From contig JAFZFF010000101.1 of NCBI GenBank assembly GCA_017556045.1, positions 1-32,709 of the forward strand: a stretch of DNA of 32,709 nucleotides. Reading direction: 5' to 3'. The position numbers and the translations under genes are program-made. Shown here piece by piece: positions 4,332 to 32,709 of the stretch. Each line of letters starts with the position of its first letter. Position 1 is the first letter of the stretch. This stretch comes from Bacteroidaceae bacterium. GTDB taxonomy: Bacteria; Bacteroidota; Bacteroidia; Bacteroidales; Bacteroidaceae. Below the pieces are notes generated by a model that made no database searches, was not told where the DNA came from, and worked only from the letters and a program-made list of their open reading frames with translations.

Positions 4332-4638
4332 TTAGTGAAATCCGATGGATTCGTGGTTTTGGGACGAATGACCTGTTCGAAACTTGCATTTTTCAGGTGA
4401 TAAAAGTTTATTTTTGGGGTGGCATGGCAGTGTCGGAGGTATGTAAAAAATATATTGCAGGTGCATAAGGAAATTATTGCATGTGTGAAAATTTCTTACT
4501 CGAAGTATACACTTGACGGATTGAACAGCTGTAATTTTTGCAACGAAGGTCTGTGATTTTTCTCGAGGACAGCTCCGATAATTTTACCACACAGTTTTGA
4601 TGTAAAAAACGCAGGTTCGATCGCAAGAAAAGGCCTTT

Positions 4639-4704
4639 CCCTTTTCTAAAAATCTAACAGCCCTTTTCCCAAAAACGAATAGCCCTTTTTCTAAAAACGA
4701 ACCT
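4639..4704. repeat. Three tandem 22-bp units
   Basis: Units at 4639-4660, 4661-4682 and 4683-4704 each start CCCTTTT and continue with a C/T-rich step, then AAAA and CGAA or TCTAA. The second and third are nearly the same. The tract lies inside the inverted-repeat-bounded element. It has no coding potential. Confidence 0.7.
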
Positions 4705-4850
4705 ATGATTTTCCAGCGTAAAGCAAAACAGTATAAGACATTGTACTAAGTAAAAAATATTTTTCGCTTAGTGCGAGCAAAATAGTACTTTGTGTAATCG
4801 CAGAATTAGCAAACAGGCAATTCCCCAGGTGAAAAAAGTTCATAAATGAA

Positions 4851-4889
4851 GTGGCATGGCAGCGAGCTTCGCTCGCTCTGCCATGCCAC
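4851..4889. repeat. Strong hairpin with GTGGCATGGCAG arms
   Basis: GTGGCATGGC plus AGCGAGC pairs with GCTCGCT plus CTGCCATGCCAC around a TTC loop, leaving a two-base bulge. It is formed by the degenerate left-arm copy meeting the right arm of the 4396-4912 element. There is no T tract after it on either strand, so it is probably a repeat structure and not a terminator. Confidence 0.7.
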
Positions 4890-4954
4890 CCCAAAAATAA
4901 ACTTTTGCCACCCAGACATTAGGGTATTTTAATGTAGTTTACATGCGCTGTCTC

Positions 4955-5010
4955 CTACTTGACCACTACGCGGAGATTGTTGACGATATATACGTCTTGG
5001 TGGAGGCACG
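4955..5010 (-). pseudogene. Remnant of a secreted-protein C-terminal tail
   Basis: The reverse strand reads CLHQDVYIVNNLRVVVK then a TAG stop. It matches the final residues of the CotH-type protein at 22066-25203 (GLHPGVYIVNNHRVVVK). Only about 18 codons remain. At about 5010 the sequence switches to the end of an unrelated gene on the other strand. It is the tail of a lost protein that carried the same sorting-type C-terminus. Confidence 0.7.
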
Positions 5011-25000: not shown

Positions 25001-25203
25001 CTACCGGTATCGAGACCATCCTCAATGACGCTTCGGCTACTATCTCCGTCAAGAGCGACGTCAGCGCTATCGAGTACACAGGTCAGTGGCCTGCCGACGT
25101 CTACGACCTCAGCGGTCGCCTCGTACGCCGCGATGCCACCTCACTCCGTGGCCTCCACCCAGGCGTATATATCGTCAACAATCACCGCGTAGTGGTCAAG
25201 TGA
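22066..25203 (+). CDS. Secreted CotH-family protein with F5/8-type, dockerin-like and cohesin-like regions (1045 aa)
   Basis: The ATG at 22066 begins a signal peptide (MRKRITLLFALATLQLTLTV, cleavage near AQ). Residues ~185-340 look like a discoidin (F5/8 type C) domain (LLDNDPQTFFHSTYSGD...YWRFEATACNYK...MSEFRLYEV). Residues ~370-740 are CotH: VVQIKGRGNSSWGAAKKPYR, MNGAYRGSYMFTQKVG and FGPAWDFDWGYGY hold the conserved Arg, Asn and Asp residues. CotH proteins have a kinase-like fold and some phosphorylate proteins. At ~760-820 two dockerin-like repeats occur: GDSNNDGHIDEKDL and DVDLNGELTVCDIAWI. Residues ~870-1000 (WDITVDMANQDTYVAFQMDF...) resemble a cohesin-like beta sandwich. The tail VYDLSGRLVRR...GVYIVNNHRVVVK is sorting-type. 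It is probably secreted or surface bound; the substrate is unknown. Confidence 0.88.
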   Translation: MRKRITLLFALATLQLTLTVAQNANPCHYIYFANGSVEAYPVEYVKSLDVTSSEYKLTLSDGTQKKWPTAQVDSVSKVSPVYPQFTDFKLDDKLNDQLFSDVDGTIYTDSVRLVVGAIGKWLTPSYKTDNKAALVYIGKDEQTSGQSRRRYADDVVYTLSLPGHTRLAREKVSDEIWSEPTSPVQELKLTASQLTTNAPSGRNQGLDMLLDNDPQTFFHSTYSGDPVYDVLPLDQCPYVSVSLTRSVSKMQFYYMGRVDSKDRNPHAFQVYASKDNKTWKKVAYFDSNDGIIPTGAGVEFTSPVMTASEPCRYWRFEATACNYKNYLCMSEFRLYEVVGEAGEPELIQPAQYAYAMLPMGREVAVRTTWLTDYAEVPRVDINIEGGKTVTSKDYYLNAEITIDGRGVWPDLQDVVQIKGRGNSSWGAAKKPYRLKFASSVKPFGMKKGKNWNLIAQAQTGSLLTNPVAHKIARMTGAAAAHDVVPFDLYMNGAYRGSYMFTQKVGLANNSVDLDDETQAVLIELDSYSETGQFRTTKYNLPVNIKSPDFGEDETVLTRAQIISDFNLLTNAIYDNANYERYMDIDMLARFMLVNELVLNAELGHPKSTFLYRENMNHMSSLYTFGPAWDFDWGYGYEGSSTYCLTDPTEYYFDRHPKNPGRTFFMTLWETSDLIKYHYYFVWKDFMENHLEELIDYVDDYYAYARNSFKKNSSVWGDGYNYTTNVANMKSWLNTRAHYIMESLKPYDGVKAPYHFGDSNNDGHIDEKDLENMLSYLYRSYVTEAKLKKIDVDLNGELTVCDIAWICTLMDAVEPAQARRLRGFDEWSIDVEDEREDSDDDELYQVLDNYAAQAMRNQTRAEAINLSVAANAEKQGWDITVDMANQDTYVAFQMDFVLPNNISVYDDVADIVLTPRTESTHQVMGGLLKDGSYRVIVYSTANDLIADTQGPLFTLTASLEQELDAGDYPLTVKNIRMVKSTGIETILNDASATISVKSDVSAIEYTGQWPADVYDLSGRLVRRDATSLRGLHPGVYIVNNHRVVVK

Positions 25204-25279: not shown

Positions 25280-25498
25280 TTATGGCGCACCTATACATTC
25301 CACGATAATCCTTACTTGGTTGCGCGATAAGATGCGCTCCGTGCCTTTGTACCCTGCGTTCTTCAGCATTTGGCTGAGGCGGGTGGTCTTGCTCAGCTCC
25401 TCGCGGAAGAGGCGCACAGCGGTGTGTGCCAACCTATCGGGGTAGTAGAGCTGGGCGAGCTCGCCAAACTTGTATTCTTTGATTTGAAATCGTTTCAT
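25280..25498 (-). CDS. DUF4248 domain protein (72 aa)
   Basis: The sequence MKRFQIKEYKFGELAQLYYP...ILSRNQVRIIVECIGAP matches my knowledge of DUF4248 along its whole length. The Leu-Ala-x-Leu-Tyr-x-Pro motif comes near the start and QVRxIVExxG near the end. The arrangement resembles a small helical DNA-binding fold, but this is inference. DUF4248 genes in Bacteroidales typically neighbour a VirE-N/primase-like gene and a peptidoglycan hydrolase gene, as here. It is downstream of the VirE-like gene, separated by 67 nt that contain the left 31-bp inverted repeat. A decayed second copy lies at 4251-4331. Confidence 0.85.
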   Translation of the reverse strand: MKRFQIKEYKFGELAQLYYPDRLAHTAVRLFREELSKTTRLSQMLKNAGYKGTERILSRNQVRIIVECIGAP

Positions 25499-25535
25499 AT
25501 TATTTTTAGTTTTTTAATGTTGATGGAGAGACAGT

Positions 25536-25566
25536 GCATATTAACTGTAATCGTAATTGTAATCAC
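25536..25566. repeat. 31-bp inverted repeat, left copy
   Basis: It starts GCATATTAACTG and runs through three hexamers of the form (T/C)GTAAT. It matches the reverse complement of 32572-32602 at 30 of 31 positions, including a perfect 27-bp run. It ends on the first base of the VirE-like stop codon. The two copies bracket the accessory block minus DUF4248. Confidence 0.9.
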
Positions 25567-27992
25567 TATACCTTAATGAATACATCCCTCTCTTCATCCT
25601 TCACGATATGTCCACGTGATACCCAGCTTGCAAGTTGATTCCGGGGATTAGGTCTTAATCCCTGCGCTATGCGGAGGTCTCGCACCTGTTCGCGGGTGAA
25701 TTCTTTAGGTAGCATCGAGAGCAGTCCTACGGGGCCGCGCTGGAGGGAGTTCTTCTCACCATCGAGGTCGCGGTGTAGCATGTCACGGAAGAATCGCATC
25801 TTGCACCACATATCATAGCGTACAGACCAGGCGGCGAAGGTGGCTATCTCATCGCTCCATCTCATGCCATTCATCACATAGAGGAGCATGGCGCGGTAGA
25901 AGCCCATGAGCAGGCTGCGGCGCGACATCTTGGCATAGGCGCGGTCATCGGCATCGCGGGCAAAGGCTACCTGTTCGCGATTGAGCGCCAAGGCCCACTC
26001 GATGGCTTCGGGGCAGTGGAGGGTGCCGCTACAGGAGGTGAGGCGGTCTATGTACCCCTTGAGCTCTTCGGCAAAGTGCTCCCCATACTGGGCGTAGTGG
26101 GGCACCTCTTCGCCCCAGTTGTCTTCGTCCTCGATGATGGTGGAGAAGGCCAGACGCGACAGGGTACCGTCGGCAATGCTTTTGGCAAAGTACTTGCGTA
26201 CGCGCTGCACGGTGGTAGAGGCATTCCAGTTCCATCTGACGCGCACCTTGGCATTCACGGCATTGGCTGCTACGCGCTCCTGTCCGTACTTGCCGCAGTC
26301 AAAGGCGAGGCGGAGTATGGCGCTCACGCTACCGCTCTGCGTGTTGGTCTTCAGGGCATTGAGCAGCTCTATCTCGTCCATCTGTGTGTAGAGAAATTTG
26401 TTTTCTGCCTCAGAGAGTCGCAATACAAAGGCGGCATTGGTCATGTCTGACGCCAAGATCTGCGTGCCCAGCCCATCGGGGCGCTTGGGCTTGTCGGCAG
26501 GATTGGCGATGCCCTCGCAGGTCTCGCGCCAGCGTCGCTCCTTCTCGCGTGCCACCTCGTCGCGCGCCTCGATGTCGGCGATGATGTAGTCGATGGGGGT
26601 GTTCACCGCACTCTTACCCGATGATAGCTCTGCCACGAGCACGCTCATGAAGGTGGGCTCGTAATCTCGTCCGTCGATGTAGGCAAACTGCAGATCCTTT
26701 ACATGTGCTCCCAGGGGAGGAAACACAGCCATGGCCACTGCCGCCTTCATACGCTCGGGCGTGCGTGAGGTGAGTAGCGCGATGGGTTCGGGGAGAATAG
26801 TCGGCATTGCTGGAGGTAATGCCTCGGGATGAGGGTTGAGCGTTGAGGGTTGAGAGTCCCCGTCCGCTACTTCGGAAGACTCCGACGCGACTTGTAAGGC
26901 ACGCTTCAAAGTCTCAGGCATATTGCGCGACATAGGCCTATTGATAGCGCTCTGTATCGTCTGACGATGCTTCTGAGGCTCTTCACCGTAGGTGGGGAGT
27001 ATGCTTGCTACCCATGCAGCATCATCGTTGCAGATGTAGCGGAGGTTACACGCCATGGTGAAGATGAAGGAATTTCTCGCGCCTTGGGCGGGACGGCCTC
27101 CGAGTTGCTCTTCGAGTCTTCTTATAATCTCGGAGTACTCAATACCATTGTAGTCGGTGGGGTAAGATTCTCCTCCTAAGATAGGAGGAGTACCCCGCAG
27201 GGGGGAGGTGGTATGATTGGCGTCCACAGATACCCCCTCCGCTACATTACGTTCCACTCCATTACGCTCGTCCCCCTTAAAGGGCGACAATTCTTTTTGA
27301 TTAGCCCCTTCCGCGGACTCTGCATTCTCCCTCTTTAAGGGGGAGTCCCCGCAGGGGGAGGGGGTAAGGGAGAGGGGACAATCAGGAGACGCTCCCCACA
27401 AACTTCCGTCGGGGTAGTCACTTGCATCGGGCAACTCTGCGAATAAAAGTGAAGGATTAAAGTACAGCACCTCACTCTTCATCGGCGCATACGACAATCG
27501 TGAGATATCTTTACACACATCATCGCACTGTACCCCCATCGCCTGGCAAAAGTCATGCTGCTCCTGCTGGATGCTCTTACCCTTAGCGCGCTGCATCACC
27601 AGGCGCAAGCCATCGCCACTCGGGGTGATGTGAGCAAGGGCGAGCCTACTCATGTCCATCTTGCCTGCAAGCTGCTCATAGAGCGCCTTAGCATCGCCCA
27701 CATGATCAAAGTCAAGCATCAAAAGTCCCGTAGGTCTCATAAACTCAGCGTGGCGTGGACTGAGGGGTTTCGTGCCCTGCGCCTCACACTTGGCCAGGTA
27801 CTTTCTATATTTATCTTTGTCAAACACGCCCATGTAGGTCAGCGCGGGCAGCTTGCTCTTCGCTTTGGGCTCTCCTGCACGGTGTGCAAGGATGAGCCTT
27901 TCGGTCTTCTCGCTCTGCGTGAGGGTGTAAAACTGCTGCGCATCGCAGGGCTTGAGAACATTGTCAAATGAGTTGTTTACGTAATTAATCAT
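25566..27992 (-). CDS. VirE-N (BT4734-like) / primase-like protein of an accessory element (808 aa)
   Basis: Residues ~40-185 are a VirE N-terminal/BT4734-like domain: LPALTYMGVFDK, GLLMLDFDHVGDA, ALAHITPSGDGLRLVMQ and CKDISRLSYAP, resembling an archaeo-eukaryotic primase fold with acidic and His/Gly residues. Residues ~206-276 are a low-complexity linker encoded by GC-rich repeats. Residues ~280-370 look like a primase C-terminal helical region (IIRRLEEQLGGRP...NLRYICNDDAAWVASILPTYG). The rest is a DUF3987-like helicase-type region with a degenerate loop (AELSSGKSAVNTPIDYI, ~455) and an acidic QMDEIELL (~550). Such proteins are found in Bacteroidales accessory modules beside DUF4248 and peptidoglycan hydrolases; DNA replication or priming is likely but unproven. 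The frame is open despite the repeat insertion. Confidence 0.85.
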   Translation of the reverse strand: MINYVNNSFDNVLKPCDAQQFYTLTQSEKTERLILAHRAGEPKAKSKLPALTYMGVFDKDKYRKYLAKCEAQGTKPLSPRHAEFMRPTGLLMLDFDHVGDAKALYEQLAGKMDMSRLALAHITPSGDGLRLVMQRAKGKSIQQEQHDFCQAMGVQCDDVCKDISRLSYAPMKSEVLYFNPSLLFAELPDASDYPDGSLWGASPDCPLSLTPSPCGDSPLKRENAESAEGANQKELSPFKGDERNGVERNVAEGVSVDANHTTSPLRGTPPILGGESYPTDYNGIEYSEIIRRLEEQLGGRPAQGARNSFIFTMACNLRYICNDDAAWVASILPTYGEEPQKHRQTIQSAINRPMSRNMPETLKRALQVASESSEVADGDSQPSTLNPHPEALPPAMPTILPEPIALLTSRTPERMKAAVAMAVFPPLGAHVKDLQFAYIDGRDYEPTFMSVLVAELSSGKSAVNTPIDYIIADIEARDEVAREKERRWRETCEGIANPADKPKRPDGLGTQILASDMTNAAFVLRLSEAENKFLYTQMDEIELLNALKTNTQSGSVSAILRLAFDCGKYGQERVAANAVNAKVRVRWNWNASTTVQRVRKYFAKSIADGTLSRLAFSTIIEDEDNWGEEVPHYAQYGEHFAEELKGYIDRLTSCSGTLHCPEAIEWALALNREQVAFARDADDRAYAKMSRRSLLMGFYRAMLLYVMNGMRWSDEIATFAAWSVRYDMWCKMRFFRDMLHRDLDGEKNSLQRGPVGLLSMLPKEFTREQVRDLRIAQGLRPNPRNQLASWVSRGHIVKDEERDVFIKV
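27166..27377. repeat. GC-rich dispersed repeats inside the VirE-like gene
   Basis: 27166-27284 aligns end to end with the reverse complement of the intergenic repeat at 14907-15010 (shared GGAGGAGTACCC, GGGGGAGGTGGTA, TACCCCCTCCGCT and TTACGCTCGTCCCCCT). A second unit (27327-27377) has CCCTCTTTAAGGGGGAGTCC. Together they encode residues ~206-276, rich in Pro, Gly, Ser and Glu. Confidence 0.85.
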
Positions 27993-27995
27993 ATA

Positions 27996-28060
27996 GACCC
28001 CTTCTGCCCTTCGGGCATCTCCCCCTCTATGGGGAGAGCCTTCGGGGTGCTGCTGGGGTA
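27996..28060. repeat. GC-rich palindromic repeat upstream of the VirE-like gene
   Basis: It contains GACCCCTTCTG, a GCCCTTCGGGC hairpin and CTCCCCCTCTATGGGGAGAG. It is the inverted partner of the repeat at 28104-28138. With it, the repeat occupies most of the 132-bp gap between two genes. Confidence 0.75.
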
Positions 28061-28103
28061 AGCAGTTTGTTAAATGTTATAAATAAAAATCAGCGAGGTT
28101 TGA

Positions 28104-28138
28104 GTCCTCCCCATAGAGGGGGAGTTAGAGGGGGTCTA
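28104..28138. repeat. GC-rich palindromic repeat supplying the M15 stop codon
   Basis: On the minus strand it reads GACCCCCTCTAACTCCCCCT then CTATGGGGAGGAC. The M15 gene runs into it and ends there: GAC CCC CTC TAA gives the last three residues Asp-Pro-Leu and the stop. Confidence 0.75.
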
Positions 28139-28604
28139 TGAACGGCCAAGTGTTAAAACCCTCGATGTCGTACGCGATATGTATATACCCACGCTTGCGG
28201 TCGATGTAGCACTCGGTGATGCCCAGCTGACCCGTACTGAAGAGATACACGATGAGTTCGTAGAGCTTATATACCAGTCCATTCTTGGGGCGAATATCTG
28301 CCGCCATACCCTTCATGTGGTAGCTGTATTGGGCACCGCCTACAGCCTTGTTCAGCTCGGGGCAACGGTAGCCACTGTTGACGATGATGGGTCCGTCCCA
28401 TGCCTCGCGTATCGGGTCGAGCACATTTTCGGTGAGCAGCTCGAGGTTTCTCACGGCCTCCGCCGAGGGCACGTTCTCGATGTAACGTGCCTGAGCGGTT
28501 GCGCTATAGGTGAATTCTTCAAGACTAAAGAAGACCCCCTCCCAGCCTCCCCCTCTATGGGGAGGAGTTGCTGGCATCGCGGTAGTTTTATTCGTTGTTG
28601 TCAT
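28125..28604 (-). CDS. M15-family D,D-carboxypeptidase-like peptidoglycan hydrolase (159 aa)
   Basis: Peptidase M15_3 features are complete: FSLEEFTYSATAQARYIENV (~25-45), PIIVNSGYRCPELNKAVGG (~72-90), the zinc-binding SYHMKGMAADI (~93-104, His and Asp) and YIHIAYD (~140, second His). The family cleaves peptidoglycan peptide cross-links. No signal peptide is visible, as for phage-type endolysin-like members. Residues ~12-24 (ATPPHRGGGWEGV) are encoded by a GC-rich repeat inserted just after the start, and the last three residues and stop come from another repeat. The gene's start overlaps the end of the upstream gene by 17 nt. It belongs to the DUF4248/VirE-like accessory module. Confidence 0.87.
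   Translation of the reverse strand: MTTTNKTTAMPATPPHRGGGWEGVFFSLEEFTYSATAQARYIENVPSAEAVRNLELLTENVLDPIREAWDGPIIVNSGYRCPELNKAVGGAQYSYHMKGMAADIRPKNGLVYKLYELIVYLFSTGQLGITECYIDRKRGYIHIAYDIEGFNTWPFIDPL
28533..28567. repeat. GC-rich palindromic repeat within the M15 gene
   Basis: GACCCCCTCCCAGCCTCC followed by CCCTCTATGGGGAGGAG is the same unit as at 28104-28138. It encodes about residues 13-24 of the M15 protein, ahead of the conserved domain. Confidence 0.8.
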
Positions 28605-28965
28605 TACTTCTTACTTTTTTGTTCGTTTTACGTTCTTTTTCTTCTCTGCTAGCTCCTCCATAGAGGGAGGGGTTGGGGAGGGTCTTCCTCTTTTCATAGT
28701 ACAGTCCATCGCCGATGTACTCTTTGGGTGCGAAGGGTAGCGGACTATCGCGGCGGATGATGCCCATGACACGACCATTCTTGACGCCTATGGCAAAGTG
28801 GATGATGCCACCAAATCTGCGGTCGTGATTGTCAAAGTACCCTTGCAAGCCATGCTGCAGATGCCCGAAGAAGGCCGAGCGGTTCTTGATAGGTTTCATG
28901 AGGCCCCCCTCAGTCCCCCCAAGGGGGGATGACTGGTTTTTCTTTTTATAGTTACTTGTTGTCAT
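28588..28965 (-). CDS. Unrecognised protein with repeat-derived ends (125 aa)
   Basis: I do not recognise the family. A plausible folded core spans residues ~24-93 (MKPIKNRSAFFGHLQHGLQG, FDNHDRRFGGIIHFAIGVKN, PFAPKEYIGDGLYYEKRK). It is flanked by a repeat-derived stretch at each side, NQSSPLGGTEGGL (~10-22) and LPNPSLYGGASREE (~96-109); the final part is highly charged. The Met at residue 23 could be the original start. The 3' end overlaps the M15 start by 17 nt, so translation may be coupled. No membrane segment or signal peptide is seen. Confidence 0.6.
   Translation of the reverse strand: MTTSNYKKKNQSSPLGGTEGGLMKPIKNRSAFFGHLQHGLQGYFDNHDRRFGGIIHFAIGVKNGRVMGIIRRDSPLPFAPKEYIGDGLYYEKRKTLPNPSLYGGASREEKERKTNKKVRSNDNNE
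28652..28684. repeat. GC-rich palindromic repeat near the 3' end of the 125-aa gene
   Basis: GCTCCTCCATAGAGGGAGG followed by GGTTGGGGAGGGTC is the same repeat family in reverse orientation. It encodes LPNPSLYGGA near the C-terminus. Confidence 0.75.
28901..28933. repeat. GC-rich palindromic repeat at the 5' end of the 125-aa gene
   Basis: AGGCCCCCCTCAGTCCCCCC followed by AAGGGGGGATGAC is a variant with a CCCCCC/GGGGGG palindrome. It encodes SSPLGGTEGG before an internal Met. Confidence 0.7.
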
Positions 28966-28984
28966 TGTTTTGAATTGTTATGTG

Positions 28985-29431
28985 TTAGGAATTAGTGCTT
29001 CTCGCGGTTGTCTGAGTCACCCCTCCTTGGGAGGGGCTGGGGGAGGCTACTACTGTGTCGTACACATCCGCTTCAAGGCGGCGCTTCACCTCATCTATCT
29101 CGCTCTGTATGTAGAGCACCATGAGGGGCTTGGTGAGGTGGCGCGGTACGAGGAACGACACCTTCACCTTGTCCTCAGTCACTGCCAGCGTAGTGCTTCC
29201 TACCACCACCTGCTTCTGATAGGTGGGCTTGCGCGAAGCCTCTGCGTAGGGCTCAAATACGAAGCTGGTGCCCTCCATCTTCACACGACCACGGATGGTC
29301 TTCTCGGGCTTGCCCAGGCGCTCCAGGGCACCACTGTGGTAGCTCTTGGTCATCACCTTCATCTTACCATTTTCACTCACGTGCATATCGCACATCTCAA
29401 GGGTCTCACTGCTGTTAAAATACTTTTTCAT
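28985..29431 (-). CDS. Unrecognised accessory-block protein (148 aa)
   Basis: The ATG at 29431 starts MKKYFNSSETLEMCDMHVSE; a longer frame to 29500 would begin beyond a hairpin and looks less protein-like. The core is a mixed alpha/beta sequence (MKVMTKSYHSGALERLGKPE, TTLAVTEDKVKVSFLVPRHL) ending in a helix (IQSEIDEVKRRLEADVY). The last ~20 residues (ASPSPSQGGVTQTTARSTNS) come from a GC-rich repeat. I recognise no family. It has its own predicted promoter with a leader hairpin and lies just upstream of the 125-aa gene on the same strand. Confidence 0.6.
   Translation of the reverse strand: MKKYFNSSETLEMCDMHVSENGKMKVMTKSYHSGALERLGKPEKTIRGRVKMEGTSFVFEPYAEASRKPTYQKQVVVGSTTLAVTEDKVKVSFLVPRHLTKPLMVLYIQSEIDEVKRRLEADVYDTVVASPSPSQGGVTQTTARSTNS
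29015..29049. repeat. GC-rich palindromic repeat at the 3' end of the 148-aa gene
   Basis: AGTCACCCCTCCTTGGGAGG followed by GGCTGGGGGAGGCT belongs to the same family. It encodes ASPSPSQGGVT close to the stop codon. Confidence 0.7.
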
Positions 29432-29524
29432 TGTTTTTTCGGTTTGTGGGCGAGGCTTCAGAAACGATGGCCATCTATCTCGAGAATCCCTTCGGCCCAC
29501 TGCCCGATGTTAATAAAAAATTTA

Positions 29525-29557
29525 CTCCCGCAACCACTTTCGTTGTGATTACGGGAG
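29525..29557 (-). terminator. Hairpin with T tract between minus-strand genes
   Basis: In minus-strand RNA, CUCCCGUAAUCAC pairs with GUGGUUGCGGGAG throughout (13 bp including two U-G pairs) around AACGAAA, then UAAAUUUUUU follows. The wobble pairs make it stable only as minus-strand RNA. It can end transcripts from 29626-30057. A -7 element directly upstream would make it the 5' leader of the 148-aa gene too. Confidence 0.7.
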
Positions 29558-29565
29558 CAAAGGTA
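29558..29565 (-). promoter_or_regulatory. -7 element for the 148-aa gene
   Basis: TACCTTTG on the minus strand matches TAnnTTTG. Transcription would begin at the base of the 29525-29557 hairpin, about 120 nt before the ATG at 29431. No good -33 is seen. Confidence 0.45.
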
Positions 29566-29584
29566 CGGCGATATTTTTCCGCCC

Positions 29585-29618
29585 ACTTGATACGTATATA
29601 ATACGCCGACTTGATACG
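29585..29618. repeat. Two direct repeats ACTTGATACG, operator candidate
   Basis: Exact 10-bp copies lie at 29585-29594 and 29609-29618, 24 bp apart, about 20 bp upstream of the -7 element at 29558-29565. The spacing of roughly two helical turns would suit a dimeric regulator. Confidence 0.5.
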
Positions 29619-29625
29619 GTCTATG

Positions 29626-30057
29626 CTACAACGCTTCTAATCGCGATCGAAACGCCCATGTCTTCTCTTGGTCCAGTCCGCGAGCCTTCGAGGTGCGCAG
29701 CGTCTCGGGGTTTATTCCCCACAGAGCGCCCCACATCTTCCATTTTGTAGATATATTAAGTCTCTCGGTGAGATATTCCGCCAAGGTACCCTTCTCTGCA
29801 TTGGACAACCCCACCGGCATCCACCCCTCATCCACCATGCCAGCATCCATAAGCTTGGCGTGTAGGGTGCGCGCCTCGTCAGAGAGCAACACCTCGGGCA
29901 GAGGGGCCACATCCATCACCTCGGCCTCGGCCTCCTCTACCACGGGCATGGCGTTCACCGTCATAGAGCCATCGGGGGAGATGGTCACTGACATCGAGTG
30001 CACCGTGTCGGCGATGACACCAAAGGTGCAATTATTAAAAATCTTATTCCCACTCAT
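29626..30057 (-). CDS. Unrecognised accessory-block protein (143 aa)
   Basis: The N-terminus MSGNKIFNNCTFGVIADTVH runs into a beta-rich piece, then an acidic Ala/Glu/Val linker (~40-58). The C-terminal part (~60-143) is helical with conserved-looking Trp residues: DAGMVDEGWMPVGLSNAEKG, ISTKWKMWGALWGINPETLR. I cannot name the family. The start codon overlaps the upstream gene's stop by 4 nt (ATGA), so the pair is an operon with likely translational coupling. A hairpin terminator follows. Confidence 0.65.
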   Translation of the reverse strand: MSGNKIFNNCTFGVIADTVHSMSVTISPDGSMTVNAMPVVEEAEAEVMDVAPLPEVLLSDEARTLHAKLMDAGMVDEGWMPVGLSNAEKGTLAEYLTERLNISTKWKMWGALWGINPETLRTSKARGLDQEKTWAFRSRLEAL

Positions 30058-30548
30058 TCAGCCCTCCTCTCTATCACGCGCAGTGATGGTGTAGCGGTGA
30101 GCGTATTGATGGTGCCAGTGGTAGCTATGGTGCAGCCATTATACACCTGCCTCATGCGCGCATTGTCACGACGCGTGTGGTGCGCCTTGATGTTCGTCGC
30201 CTTCTGCTTGATGTCGCGGTCGCCCTCGGCATAGTCCACCAGCAGGTCGTAGATAGGCTTCGCCTCAGCCCACGAGGTGCACTCCTTGGCAAAGCGCTCG
30301 ATGAAGTCGATGGGGATGGCCTTCGTGCGGCGCAGCACCTCCTCATCGGTAGCCTCTCTCGCGGCACTCAGCCTCTCCACCTCGCGCTGCAGGTCATCGC
30401 GCTCCTCCTCAGCCTCGCGCAACTGCTTGATAATCTCTGATACATACTCTTTTATCTCACTCAGAAAGTCCATTACACCTTCACAGATGACGCCGGACAA
30501 GCGCTCCCCGAATACCGTCGGGAAGTCCATTAATTCATTCACTTTCAT
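30054..30548 (-). CDS. Unrecognised coiled-coil protein (164 aa)
   Basis: I chose the ATG at 30548 (MKVNELMDFPTVFGERLSG); the upstream extension to 30599 would include most of the predicted leader. Residues ~30-75 form a clear coiled coil (EIIKQLREAEEERDDLQREV). Then comes a short helical region (IDFIERFAKECTSWAEAKPI) and a basic stretch (ATNIKAHHTRRDNARMRQVY). It has no signal peptide and no recognised domain. It is the first gene of a two-gene operon with the 143-aa protein. Confidence 0.65.
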   Translation of the reverse strand: MKVNELMDFPTVFGERLSGVICEGVMDFLSEIKEYVSEIIKQLREAEEERDDLQREVERLSAAREATDEEVLRRTKAIPIDFIERFAKECTSWAEAKPIYDLLVDYAEGDRDIKQKATNIKAHHTRRDNARMRQVYNGCTIATTGTINTLTATPSLRVIERRAE

Positions 30549-30608
30549 AATGTTAGATGATTTTTTAATGGGGTTAAACCTAATGTTATCCTCTCTCAAA
30601 AACGGTTA

Positions 30609-30640
30609 CAAATGTAGCACCGAAAATCCCATCCTCCAAA
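30609..30640 (-). promoter_or_regulatory. Promoter of the 164-aa/143-aa operon
   Basis: On the minus strand TTTG (30637-30640) and TACATTTG (30609-30616) are spaced by 20 nt. This is the best-formed Bacteroidetes-type promoter in the window. The leader is about 55 nt. The rest of the gap up to 30827 shows no gene. Confidence 0.7.
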
Positions 30641-30827
30641 CTTTCGAGCAAGAAGTTTTCCACCACTTTTCCACACCCACGGCCGTCGCCCCTTGCAAGC
30701 GATTGACGCTCAGTGAGTACCAGAAATTTAAAGAATTTCGTATGTTTTATAACATGTTTTGCAATTTTTTTACTCCTCCGAAACGGGGGTGTCAGATTGC
30801 AAAATCACTCCTTTTGTTGGATTGAGC

Positions 30828-31820
30828 TTAAAGGTCTAGAAATCTTCTGCTATAAGAAAACCAACTATAAGGTTTCTCTTTATACACACAGTCGAAGCAT
30901 TTGAAACCTAAATTCACTATTCGTGTCTCAGGTTCAAATAGTTGGTCGTAATTAAAAGATGCAAAGTTATAGGATTTACAGGCTTTACAAACTGTTTGAC
31001 ACTCCAGTGTGCCTCTTTTTGTTTTTACTTCGTGAATGTTAGCTCCATACTGATTGGCTAATGCAATCTCAGCACCATTAAAGCCTGTAGAGTTTACATA
31101 CATACCTTGAGGACTCCCAATTAGTGCCAATCTGACGCTGTTCCCACATTTCCAACAAGGTTTATCTATGAAGAACATCTCTGCACGATTCATTCTCCGA
31201 TGACATTTTGGACATAAGGGATTGGGACATATATTTACCTTGTCCACAGACAAAAGTCGTTTAGAAATATCCTCACAATCATCAAAGTCACTTATCATTA
31301 ACTGCAGACATGCAATCTTATGATTCTCATAGTAATTTAATGCATTTTCACTGGGTTCGTGAGTCACTACTACCTCGATAACTATGACAACATTATTATC
31401 CTTATCAAGCAAAGCTATATCAGGAATGCACTCCGCCAAATTGTATTCTTCGACAACTTTTGCAGCTTTCTTCAATAAGTTGCCCTCGTGATATTCTCCA
31501 CACTTATCACAATGCCAACGAAATTTCAATTCATTGACACCCTGATTCAATCTATCGTTGATTAGGTCTACAATCTTCTGTTTTGTTCGCTTATGAAGAT
31601 ACGATTCAGAACAAGTATTCGTATTGCCCGACTTATGAGCAAAATGATTCTTCCTATATCCCTTTTGTCCCTCAGGAATCTTACTGATTCGTAACACCAG
31701 CTCCTCCCCGCAGACAGGGCAAAAGTATTTCTCGCCTTTTACTGCATCAGAAATGTGTATTTCATCCCCCTTACTATCCTTCGCAAAAGGAAGAAGGATT
31801 TTACGTGATGTTCTATTCAT
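30828..31820 (-). CDS. CoiA-like competence/nuclease family protein with zinc-ribbon cysteines (330 aa)
   Basis: The N-terminal part shows CPVCGEELVLRISK (first Cys pair ~34/37) followed by NHFAHKSGN...CSESYLHKRTKQKI, the typical CoiA-like opening. The nuclease-like core has IPDIALLDKDNNVVIVIEVV (~130-150), matching a PD-(D/E)xK layout with Asp and Glu-x-Val, followed by THEPS. More Cys pairs follow: HCDKCG, CPKC, CWKCG, CKAC and CFDC. The start is the ATG at 31820; a TTG at 31835 overlaps the upstream gene. CoiA-like proteins are linked to DNA uptake or restriction-type functions in other bacteria; here the role is unknown. The gene is AT-rich relative to its neighbours, as is the one upstream 12 nt away. 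Confidence 0.75.
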   Translation of the reverse strand: MNRTSRKILLPFAKDSKGDEIHISDAVKGEKYFCPVCGEELVLRISKIPEGQKGYRKNHFAHKSGNTNTCSESYLHKRTKQKIVDLINDRLNQGVNELKFRWHCDKCGEYHEGNLLKKAAKVVEEYNLAECIPDIALLDKDNNVVIVIEVVVTHEPSENALNYYENHKIACLQLMISDFDDCEDISKRLLSVDKVNICPNPLCPKCHRRMNRAEMFFIDKPCWKCGNSVRLALIGSPQGMYVNSTGFNGAEIALANQYGANIHEVKTKRGTLECQTVCKACKSYNFASFNYDQLFEPETRIVNLGFKCFDCVYKEKPYSWFSYSRRFLDL

Positions 31821-31831
31821 GGGGGAAACTA

Positions 31832-32410
31832 TCAAATCTCTTCCAAATGCTTTTGAATCTTTGCCTCTTCATTTTGGGCATCACGGTAGCGGATAACTAC
31901 TGCAGTTTCGCTGTATCCTCCAGCCTTCTCTATCGTGATTTCTATTTCGCCACCAGTAACTTCCCATAGGCTTCCCCATGTTGCTCTTCCGCTAATAAGT
32001 TCAAGCATATATGCCGCATCAGAAGGGCTCACAGATTTCGTTGCATTATTCTTCTCTACCACAGTTGCCGGCTTACCATATTTGCGAGTATACAAATCCT
32101 TGTAGTAATTGTAGGTGTTCACCAACACCTTCCATTCATCAGAAGCATCAAAGAGTACCACTACCGAATAGACATTCTCACCCTCATCATCAGCAATTAC
32201 GCCCACCGTTGCGTTACGCCCAGTGAAGTCGCCGGTAAACAAAGTCGTATTATTATCATTGCCAATCGTCTTGAATCCTTTCGCACTCAACTGCTTGCAA
32301 AATGCGTCCATACTACCTTCGAGAGGGATACCCTTAAACGAAAGATGCTCTTGAGCCATACATGCAAATGAAACAAAAAGGACGATAAGTGAAAAAAGAT
32401 GTCTTTTCAT
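31832..32410 (-). CDS. Small secreted protein, Bacteroidales FKGIPLEG type (192 aa)
   Basis: From the ATG at 32410 a signal peptide is clear (MKRHLFSLIVLFVSFACMAQ). The mature start, EHLSFKGIPLEGSMDAFCKQL, resembles a common Bacteroidales secreted hypothetical of unknown function. The rest is alpha/beta, with GRNATVGVIADDEGENVYSV, YYKDLYTRKYGKPA and EIEITIEKAGGYSETAVVIR. The C-terminal helix is NEEAKIQKHLEEI. The Cys inside the signal peptide could instead be a lipobox, but Phe at -2 makes that weaker. It precedes the CoiA-like gene by 12 nt, so both are likely on one transcript from the promoter at 32456. Confidence 0.75.
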   Translation of the reverse strand: MKRHLFSLIVLFVSFACMAQEHLSFKGIPLEGSMDAFCKQLSAKGFKTIGNDNNTTLFTGDFTGRNATVGVIADDEGENVYSVVVLFDASDEWKVLVNTYNYYKDLYTRKYGKPATVVEKNNATKSVSPSDAAYMLELISGRATWGSLWEVTGGEIEITIEKAGGYSETAVVIRYRDAQNEEAKIQKHLEEI

Positions 32411-32455
32411 AGTGATTGTATTTATTACTGTTGTTTTAGTTCTTCTACTCTTCTG

Positions 32456-32487
32456 CAAAGTTACGAACTCCCCCTCACCTCTGCAAG
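32456..32487 (-). promoter_or_regulatory. Promoter of the secreted-protein/CoiA-like operon
   Basis: On the minus strand the -7 element is TAACTTTG (32456-32463); CTTG (32484-32487) 20 nt upstream is a near -33. The leader is about 40 nt. Confidence 0.55.
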
Positions 32488-32571
32488 TTTTCAGCGCAAA
32501 AGATTTTTTCGGAGCGGGTCCTTCACATTGTCATAAGACAATCAGAGTCAACAAATCCAGTACAACTGGGG

Positions 32572-32602
32572 GTGCTTACAATTACGATTACAGTTAATAT
32601 GC
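32572..32602. repeat. 31-bp inverted repeat, right copy
   Basis: It is the inverted partner of 25536-25566 (one mismatch in 31). It lies about 110 bp upstream of the predicted promoter at 32456. Beyond it to the window end (32603-32709) the DNA is very AT-rich, with no gene seen. Confidence 0.9.
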
Positions 32603-32709
32603 GCACTCACGATAGAGGCAAATATACTGTTGAGTAAAAACTCTTATTTTATATATTAGATATACATAGTATATATAATATAAAAATAAGCCATATTATT
32701 ATATACCCA

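Follow-up and report, generated by a model that had tools for sequence, protein, structure and literature searches.

In a Bacteroidaceae bacterium, a 7-kb block of minus-strand genes that includes a primase-like gene is flanked by two copies of the same short tandem units, one of them directly behind the primase-like gene and the other forming part of a hairpin element that is dispersed in this and related genomes. The sequence of the units varies between loci, and where a hairpin and a primase gene share a contig their units mostly agree. Judging from the sequences, we tentatively propose that the units may be iterons of a PrimPol-like initiator and that the hairpin may be its origin, in a satellite-style unit with a logic like that of phage-inducible chromosomal islands (PICIs), phage P4 and plasmid pRN1; we rate this reading as plausible, if somewhat short of probable. 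The block lies in what we call the window, the whole stretch of DNA analysed, which is the entire contig C90 (32709 bp) of a 2.54-Mb assembly of 104 contigs with a listed completeness of 78%. The named same-genus records with which it was compared are metagenome assemblies in which hairpins often stand at contig ends, and the hairpin element explains some of the contig ends in these assemblies.

A dispersed hairpin element with paired tandem arms

The initial annotation of this DNA had reported a 31-bp inverted repeat with one mismatch around the block. The repeat is real: positions 25536-25566 and 32572-32602 are reverse complements at 30 of 31 positions, and the random expectation for exact 27-bp inverted pairs in 32.7 kb is ~3e-8. 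What had been described within it as (T/C)GTAAT hexamers is indeed a repeat, more precisely a degenerate tandem unit (TTACAA, TTACGA or TTACAG) in whose place sister elements carry other units. Of the suggestion that this might be a recombinase or iteron site, the iteron part has held up, as tandem, sequence-variable units in paired copies fit iterons best, and it is the most productive of the options that were offered.

The left copy of the repeat is a solitary arm that touches the stop codon of the primase-like gene. The right copy belongs to a palindromic element of ~182 bp, of which it forms the left arm and which is interrupted by the contig end at 32709: positions 32563-32709 are 98% identical over 147 bp to a complete hairpin copy at C20:10776-11196, and covariance model R1 matches 32573-32709, incompletely at the 3′ end. 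A full structure with three arms rather than two is therefore to be expected. The complete copy at C20 measures 182 bp and consists of three tandem units of 6-7 bp, the conserved TTAATATGCGCACTC, a core, a second conserved arm and the units again in inverted orientation; its core is an AT-rich palindrome (74% AT). The same plan, inverted tandem sets around an AT-rich palindrome, is seen in an alignment of 10 elements. We refer to the tandem-unit sequence of a hairpin or arm as its address. Other copies in the genome keep the core and carry the units GTAGACA, GGGTACA, GTCCAC, GTTAACA, GTGTCA, ATATCA or ATGTCTC-like ones, while a TACTCAG-type hairpin has a more diverged core.

Both arms of one hairpin carry the same address. 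Among 23 hairpins from seven genomes, whose borders were placed by hand for the arm-score and address tests, the mean arm score was 19.2 within a hairpin versus 5.5 between hairpins, and in 17 of them the hairpin's own right arm outscored the right arm of every other hairpin. The left arms of 20 of the 23 were periodic at p < 0.05, as assessed by shuffling.

A search of the genome with the central 21 bp of the repeat gave 10 matches, 5 on each strand, and none with a reversed-pattern control. Two of these matches lie in the window and the other eight make up four hairpin arm pairs, at C20, C37, C80 and C82, beside which no primase-type block was found in the stretches fetched. The repeat is thus largely scattered away from such blocks, an outcome that the initial annotation had itself named as speaking against its interpretation. 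A covariance model built from ten copies, with which 251 genomes of the family were searched, detected the element in 13 of them, namely in its own genome, in ten of the same genus and, weakly, in two of other genera that share the plan with quite different sequences; ten candidates were scored in each genome, so that absences in this search are weak. In a second search, which allowed 150 candidates in each genome, it was present in all three further same-genus genomes that were covered. Within the genus, hairpins are therefore known from the own genome and 13 of 18 others, the remaining five being covered by the stricter search only. An Rfam search for the hairpin, with four sources given, returned no family match.

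Model R1 was applied to 10 upstream loci orthologous to the C20 site, in nine same-genus genomes, and detected no hairpin in any of them. Hairpins thus stand at lineage-specific places, which supports their dispersal. Of the empty-site comparison that had been suggested for this DNA, the hairpin-free orthologous loci were obtained and an empty site with defined ends was not: synteny is lost upstream of C20, so that the ends of the hairpin could not be fixed, and the comparison yielded neither a target duplication nor a clean empty site. The idea that the block is a mobile unit between inverted repeats of its own is weakened by the scattered copies and by the conserved part of each arm, which points away from the block.

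Close to HU-HIG genes and hairpins, L100, L102, L108 and L110 contain long heptamer-like repeat runs in untranslated regions (CTCAACC, TTAACCC and GAGAATT), some of which form inverted pairs of their own.

Addresses behind primase genes and in hairpins

In the window the primase stop codon shares its last base with the start of the solitary set, behind which comes a DUF4248 gene; in a paralogous block at C23 (72-89% nucleotide identity over the five longest matching pieces) this position is taken by GGGTACA units. As close primase homologues we took the 11 same-genus loci whose C-terminal match reaches 50% identity or above. Ten of the 11 have an arm that overlaps the stop codon or is no more than ~20 bp away from it, and eight addresses occur behind primases: GATTACA/TTACAA (window, G004), GGGTACA, CAGTCAG (G006, G018), GTAATCA, GTGACA, GTCCGAA, TAGTCAG and GTCAACA. 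Beyond the arm, nine of the ten loci have a DUF4248-like frame (by eye, with blastp support for two), and the tenth runs off its contig. By position, these putative iterons lie immediately 3′ of the initiator candidate, as in the module of PICIs and Staphylococcus aureus pathogenicity islands (SaPIs).

Tandem repeats at the 3′ end were found for 17 of 27 same-genus primase loci versus 72 of 618 control ends of open reading frames (ORFs; p = 1.5e-9), and for 11 of 24 primase loci of seven further genera in the family (p = 5e-5), some of the repeats being generic heptamer repeats rather than clear arms. These counts cover the 27 of 30 same-genus loci with a match to residue 780 and 80 bp of flank left and, after removal of six incomplete ones, 24 of 30 loci from other genera; the controls are ends of ORFs of at least 150 codons, not curated genes. 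The unit GCTACAGT also stands behind two primases of another genus (G039), and a hairpin with GCTACAGT units (G016:C137:24661-24841) lies 2.6 kb upstream of a 38%-identical primase. Among phages, one weak match was obtained, from MT839699.1, a 4.1-kb unannotated faecal phage record with a distant primase homologue (23%). Here (L238:640-740) a DUF3987 protein is directly followed by tandem 9-bp GGTCATTAA units and an inverted copy of them, forming a hairpin. No terminal direct repeat of 15-200 bp was found in this record, which leaves its circularity unsupported.

Seven blocks or remnants have a hairpin and a primase arm on one contig, and the addresses of the two agree in six of them (the window, G002:C14, G011:C2, G012:C36, G012:C33 and G004:C100). 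The arms at C13 are unit-matched too, but the cargo there is a GH2 gene and two genes whose matches to MG2 stay below threshold. This cluster (L094:2723-10700) is bounded by GTAGACA arms, and at C84 (L096:5984-6725) there is a GTAGACA arm as in C13 together with a gene start that is 94% identical over 592 bp. Secreted genes that appear BspA-like and leucine-rich-repeat-containing by eye adjoin TAGTCAG or GTTGACA hairpins in G002 and G012 (L144, L145, L214), as if carried like cargo.

Hairpins that are not linked to a primase gene were compared with 13 primase arms, using 58 hairpins from 14 genomes and counting as a match an address similarity of 85% or better. An unlinked hairpin matched the primase-arm address in 7 of 13 comparisons with the own genome versus 25 of 169 with other genomes (p = 0.002); at a threshold of 95%, which was chosen afterwards, the counts were 7 of 13 versus 4 of 169 (p = 4e-7). 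In G012, which has two main primase addresses, GTAATCA is the address of hairpins C73 and C36 and GTTGACA that of hairpins C94, C93 and C33; hairpin C16 carries a third. Cognate solitary arms lie near 3 of 28 hairpins, as compared with 14 of 708 for non-cognate addresses (p = 0.02), in loci of mostly 20 kb or shorter; a match with two mismatches (L113), an adjacent extra unit (L150) and a second match with two mismatches (L144) were not counted as solitary arms.

Genes of the block and neighbouring features

The block had been described as nine genes between the repeats, all on the minus strand. The strand is correct for every gene, and the count is eight clear minus-strand ORFs, the DUF4248 gene being the next minus-strand gene and lying outside the left arm (Table 1).

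Table 1. Coordinates of the block, its genes and its arms in the window.
Feature	Position	Strand	Evidence or remark
DUF4248 gene	25280..25498	-	PF14053, E=1.3e-17; immediately outside left arm
Conserved outer half of solitary arm, TTAATATGCACTGTCTCT on minus strand	25527..25544	-	common to other arms of the genome
Solitary set, three tandem units, GTGATTACAATTACGATTACAG on minus strand	25545..25566	-	first base is last base of primase stop codon
Primase-like gene	25566..27992	-	BT4734-like N domain, PF08800, E=3.2e-8
M15 peptidase, phage-endolysin-like	28125..28604	-	PF08291, E=8.5e-18; phrog_894 endolysin, E=2.3e-32
Unnamed block gene	28588..28965	-	homologue in C23, 68% identical
Unnamed block gene	28985..29500	-	recurs in C23, G011:C2, G012:C36, G006:C28 and G004 blocks
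Unrecognised block gene	29626..30057	-	without Pfam, PHROG or NCBIfam match
Unrecognised gene	30054..30599	-	weak homologues in G006:C28 and G004 blocks
CoiA-like gene, AT-rich	30828..31835	-	PF25164, E=1.7e-5, slightly under cut-off
Gene of unknown family, AT-rich	31832..32458	-	signal-peptide-like start, by eye
Proximal set of hairpin, three tandem units, GTGCTTACAATTACGATTACAG	32572..32593	+	sequence and comparison with C20
Conserved TTAATATGCGCACTC of hairpin arm	32594..32608	+	comparison of arms
AT-rich palindromic hairpin core	32609..32709	+	stops at contig end; distal arm off contig

PF08800 was found in all eight aligned primase homologues, in keeping with the primase or initiator gene of a PICI/SaPI-type module. 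By eye, alignment A2 contains a P-loop-like SSGKSAVN, a Walker-B-like MDEIELL and a winged-helix-like C-terminal end, and the primase gave a weak match to PrimPol_Db that falls far below the cut-off. The genes at the right end of the block are AT-rich, as had been noticed: the GC fraction is 0.38-0.42 across 30500-32499 and 0.49-0.59 across 25500-30499, and the two AT-rich genes may perhaps be later cargo. No family match to a transposase or integrase was obtained among the block proteins at E 0.01, in agreement with the initial annotation, which had seen none.

In the related blocks of G011 and G012 an S24 peptidase gene (LexA/CI-like) lies between hairpin and primase, accompanied in G011 by a Bro-N/KilAC antirepressor gene. 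HU-HIG genes follow the hairpins at C58 and C92, a close homologue adjoins the hairpin at C104, and an HU homologue is divergent in G012:C36. In these genomes, primases of the BT4734 type are repeatedly accompanied by DUF4248, HU-type and endolysin-like neighbours, and the literature searched, as far as its texts were available, assigns no role to them.

Elsewhere in the window, a remnant of DUF4248 at 4251-4331 matches the DUF4248 gene at 80%, and near it a 51-bp inverted match of 94% joins 4957-5007 to 25151-25201, so that two distant parts of the contig (4251-5007 and 25151-25360) hold related DUF4248-side segments. Positions 4394-4912 contain an inverted pair of 35 nt, 94% complementary and 447 nt apart, that includes the word GGTGGCATGGCAG; a third, partial copy of its sequence lies at 4828-4862.

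A candidate initiator and origin, its alternatives and known systems

What the sequences themselves show is the architecture, the agreement of addresses between the two ends of a block and with some unlinked hairpins, the variety of addresses and the constant placement of an arm 3′ of the primase gene. From them we infer that the primase may bind the units, that the hairpin may fire as an origin and that the block may be able to leave the chromosome. On this model the tandem units would be iterons bound by an initiator from the primase-like gene of the same block, and the AT-rich hairpin between two inverted sets of three iterons would be a replication origin. The set that stands alone after the primase gene would then be a second initiator site, comparable to the 3′ origin of PICIs or to the ori1 and crr sites of P4. 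With an iteron address of its own in each block, initiators would act on their own origins, and hairpins elsewhere that carry the address of a block would be orphan origins, copies or remnants of such units. If so, the function of BT4734-type primases would be directly testable through paired sequence-specific sites, and changing DNA-binding specificity could be studied in the blocks on naturally varied pairs of initiator and iterons. A bolder version, which we consider doubtful, is that these are undescribed, widespread, integrase-less satellites of the Bacteroidales with a PrimPol-type initiator and two iteron sites, whose private and rapidly switching addresses would change together and whose orphan keyed origins a resident initiator could fire.

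Several observations weigh against the initiator and origin model. At G012:C93 the addresses of the hairpin and of the primase end differ, with ~160 bp left between them. Six of the 13 primase arms lack a matching unlinked hairpin in their own genome, the unlinked hairpins of G004 and G005 mismatch their primase arms, and the 25 of 169 comparisons with other genomes that pass at 85% do so because addresses are related short words. Solitary arms at C58, C87 and C104 adjoin hairpins of a different address; most hairpins stand alone, with a cognate solitary arm outside the element in only three of the 28 loci. No hairpin was found upstream of the blocks at C23, G006:C28 and G006:C20, whose contigs contain 2.4-6.2 kb ahead of the primase. 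The hairpins of G014 are strong, yet its primases do not exceed 44% identity, and G007:C39 (54%) has DUF4248 without an arm though G007 has hairpins. Several distant primases are without a tandem repeat, and heptamer repeats are common in these genomes anyway, as the control ORF ends attest. Searches with the block proteins of the window (Pfam, PHROG, NCBIfam) gave no integrase or terminase match, viral contigs searched with the primase or the arm contained no relatives, the plasmids searched gave no match, and PDB sequence searches with the primase returned nothing convincing (one weak match and two to troponin). On the side of the model, primases with similar addresses tend to be similar in their last 32 residues (Mantel r = 0.38, p = 0.005; with the near-duplicate G018 left out, r = 0.26, p = 0.035), but this is a weak result from one of three segments tried, uncorrected, with 13 sequences of which two are incomplete at the start; the first 30 residues of the same C-terminal segment do not track the address (r = -0.11). 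Beside the case of G007:C39, we note that a hairpin of the same genome (L283, G007:C94:1683-1861) has the GATTACA-type address of the G004 block.

Among the alternatives, the one that deserves most attention, though we think it unlikely, holds that TTAATATGC and the tandem units are transposon ends bound by a transposase encoded elsewhere, with the hairpins resembling miniature inverted-repeat transposable elements (MITEs) and the block a passenger moved in trans. The lineage-specific intergenic places of the hairpins (none in 10/10 orthologous C20-site loci of nine genomes) and the near-identical copies (98% over 147 bp) are what it would lead one to expect, as is the other cargo in some hairpin-to-arm segments, a GH2 gene in one case and leucine-rich-repeat-like secreted genes, recognised by eye, in others; three of eight primase homologues, moreover, very weakly match the putative-transposase model DUF4096 (best E=0.15). 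However, the tandem sets face inward in the block and outward in the hairpin, an opposite polarity that makes one shared set of outer ends impossible, and in 10 of 11 loci the arm keeps its place at the primase end. Neither a target duplication nor a clean empty site was obtained at C20, no excision was found, and the block proteins of the window gave no transposase or integrase family match at E 0.01.

We judge it improbable that the units are operators, by which a block-encoded regulator would bind a private tandem site at a divergent promoter of HU gene and block and before DUF4248. In G012:C36 the hairpin does have a divergent HU homologue on one side and a Peptidase_S24 gene (LexA/CI-like) on the other, an arm stands just upstream in four of 12 DUF4248 matches (one of them, at C63, with a different outer half), and private operators would diversify too. 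Against this, many hairpins are without a block gene in the stretch fetched, so that orphan hairpins stay unexplained, the block of the window has no S24 match, and a long AT-rich palindrome with inverted triple sets exceeds what an operator needs.

It is less probable still that the units have no function, heptamer slippage and template switching at the hairpin having matched the arms and recent copying having spread the shared addresses. Heptamer tandem repeats are common in intergenic DNA (72/618 control ORF ends), and the arms of a single hairpin could be made alike by template switching, but neither the matched arms kilobases apart (6/7) nor the enrichment at primase ends is explained in this way. 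We regard it as very improbable that matching arms are recombination sites, between which a recombinase supplied in trans would invert or excise the DNA: solitary arms with a matching address do stand in inverted orientation to the nearer arm of the hairpin and in direct orientation to the farther one, as such sites might (seen in the window, C13 with two arms, G002:C14, G012:C36, G012:C33 and G011:C2), but there is no recombinase match in the block, nine hairpin addresses in one genome would need nine recombinases or a sequence-blind one, and the order of primase end, arm and DUF4248 has a single orientation in 9/9 arm-bearing close homologues with readable 3′ flank, the tenth running off its contig, for which reason we reject the invertible segment that the initial annotation had also considered.

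In the literature searched, which includes PMC4679880, PMC10434189, PMC4596501, PMC4234260, PMC6092414 and PMC7145576 to the extent that their texts were available, the element is undescribed. The BrickBuilt MITE of Porphyromonas gingivalis is, like the hairpin, a repeat-containing element with inverted ends that is dispersed in a Bacteroidales genome (PMC4596501); it differs in its 23-nt units, which are arrayed between a leader and a tail with small inverted ends, and the available part of PMC4596501 reports neither variable paired arms nor a link to a primase. The direct repeats of one heptamer described in the available part of PMC4679880 are likewise unlike the paired variable arms found here.

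PICI and SaPI iterons are element-specific, and in phage P4 two distant sites, ori1 and crr, with the same iterons are served by one primase-helicase, alpha. The likeness of our blocks to P4 lies in the layout, the number and arrangement of repeats being different. To PICIs and SaPIs the likeness consists in a primase-type initiator, in sites immediately 3′ of its gene, in two iteron sets around an AT-rich region and in S24-type and endolysin-like neighbours in sister blocks. The differences are that here no integrase or terminase match was obtained, no att sites were seen, many hairpins are orphans, the initiator is of the BT4734 kind and the AT-rich hairpin lies at the other end of the block rather than 3′ of rep, where the window has one set only; as integrase is absent from its block proteins, we do not file the block as a PICI. 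According to the available part of PMC6092414, the PICI origin directly follows rep and has an AT-rich region between two sets of iterons, and for P4 that part mentions only alpha and one cognate ori site. For pRN1, the available part of PMC4234260 describes replication that starts at a stem-loop 3′ of a gene (ORF904) for a PrimPol-helicase-winged-helix protein, with the structure kept while the sequence varies. That plasmid is archaeal and, as far as this source goes, has no tandem iterons in the stem; its stem-loop stands behind the gene, whereas in the window an arm and not a hairpin is found 3′ of the primase, and in MT839699.1 a hairpin occupies that place.

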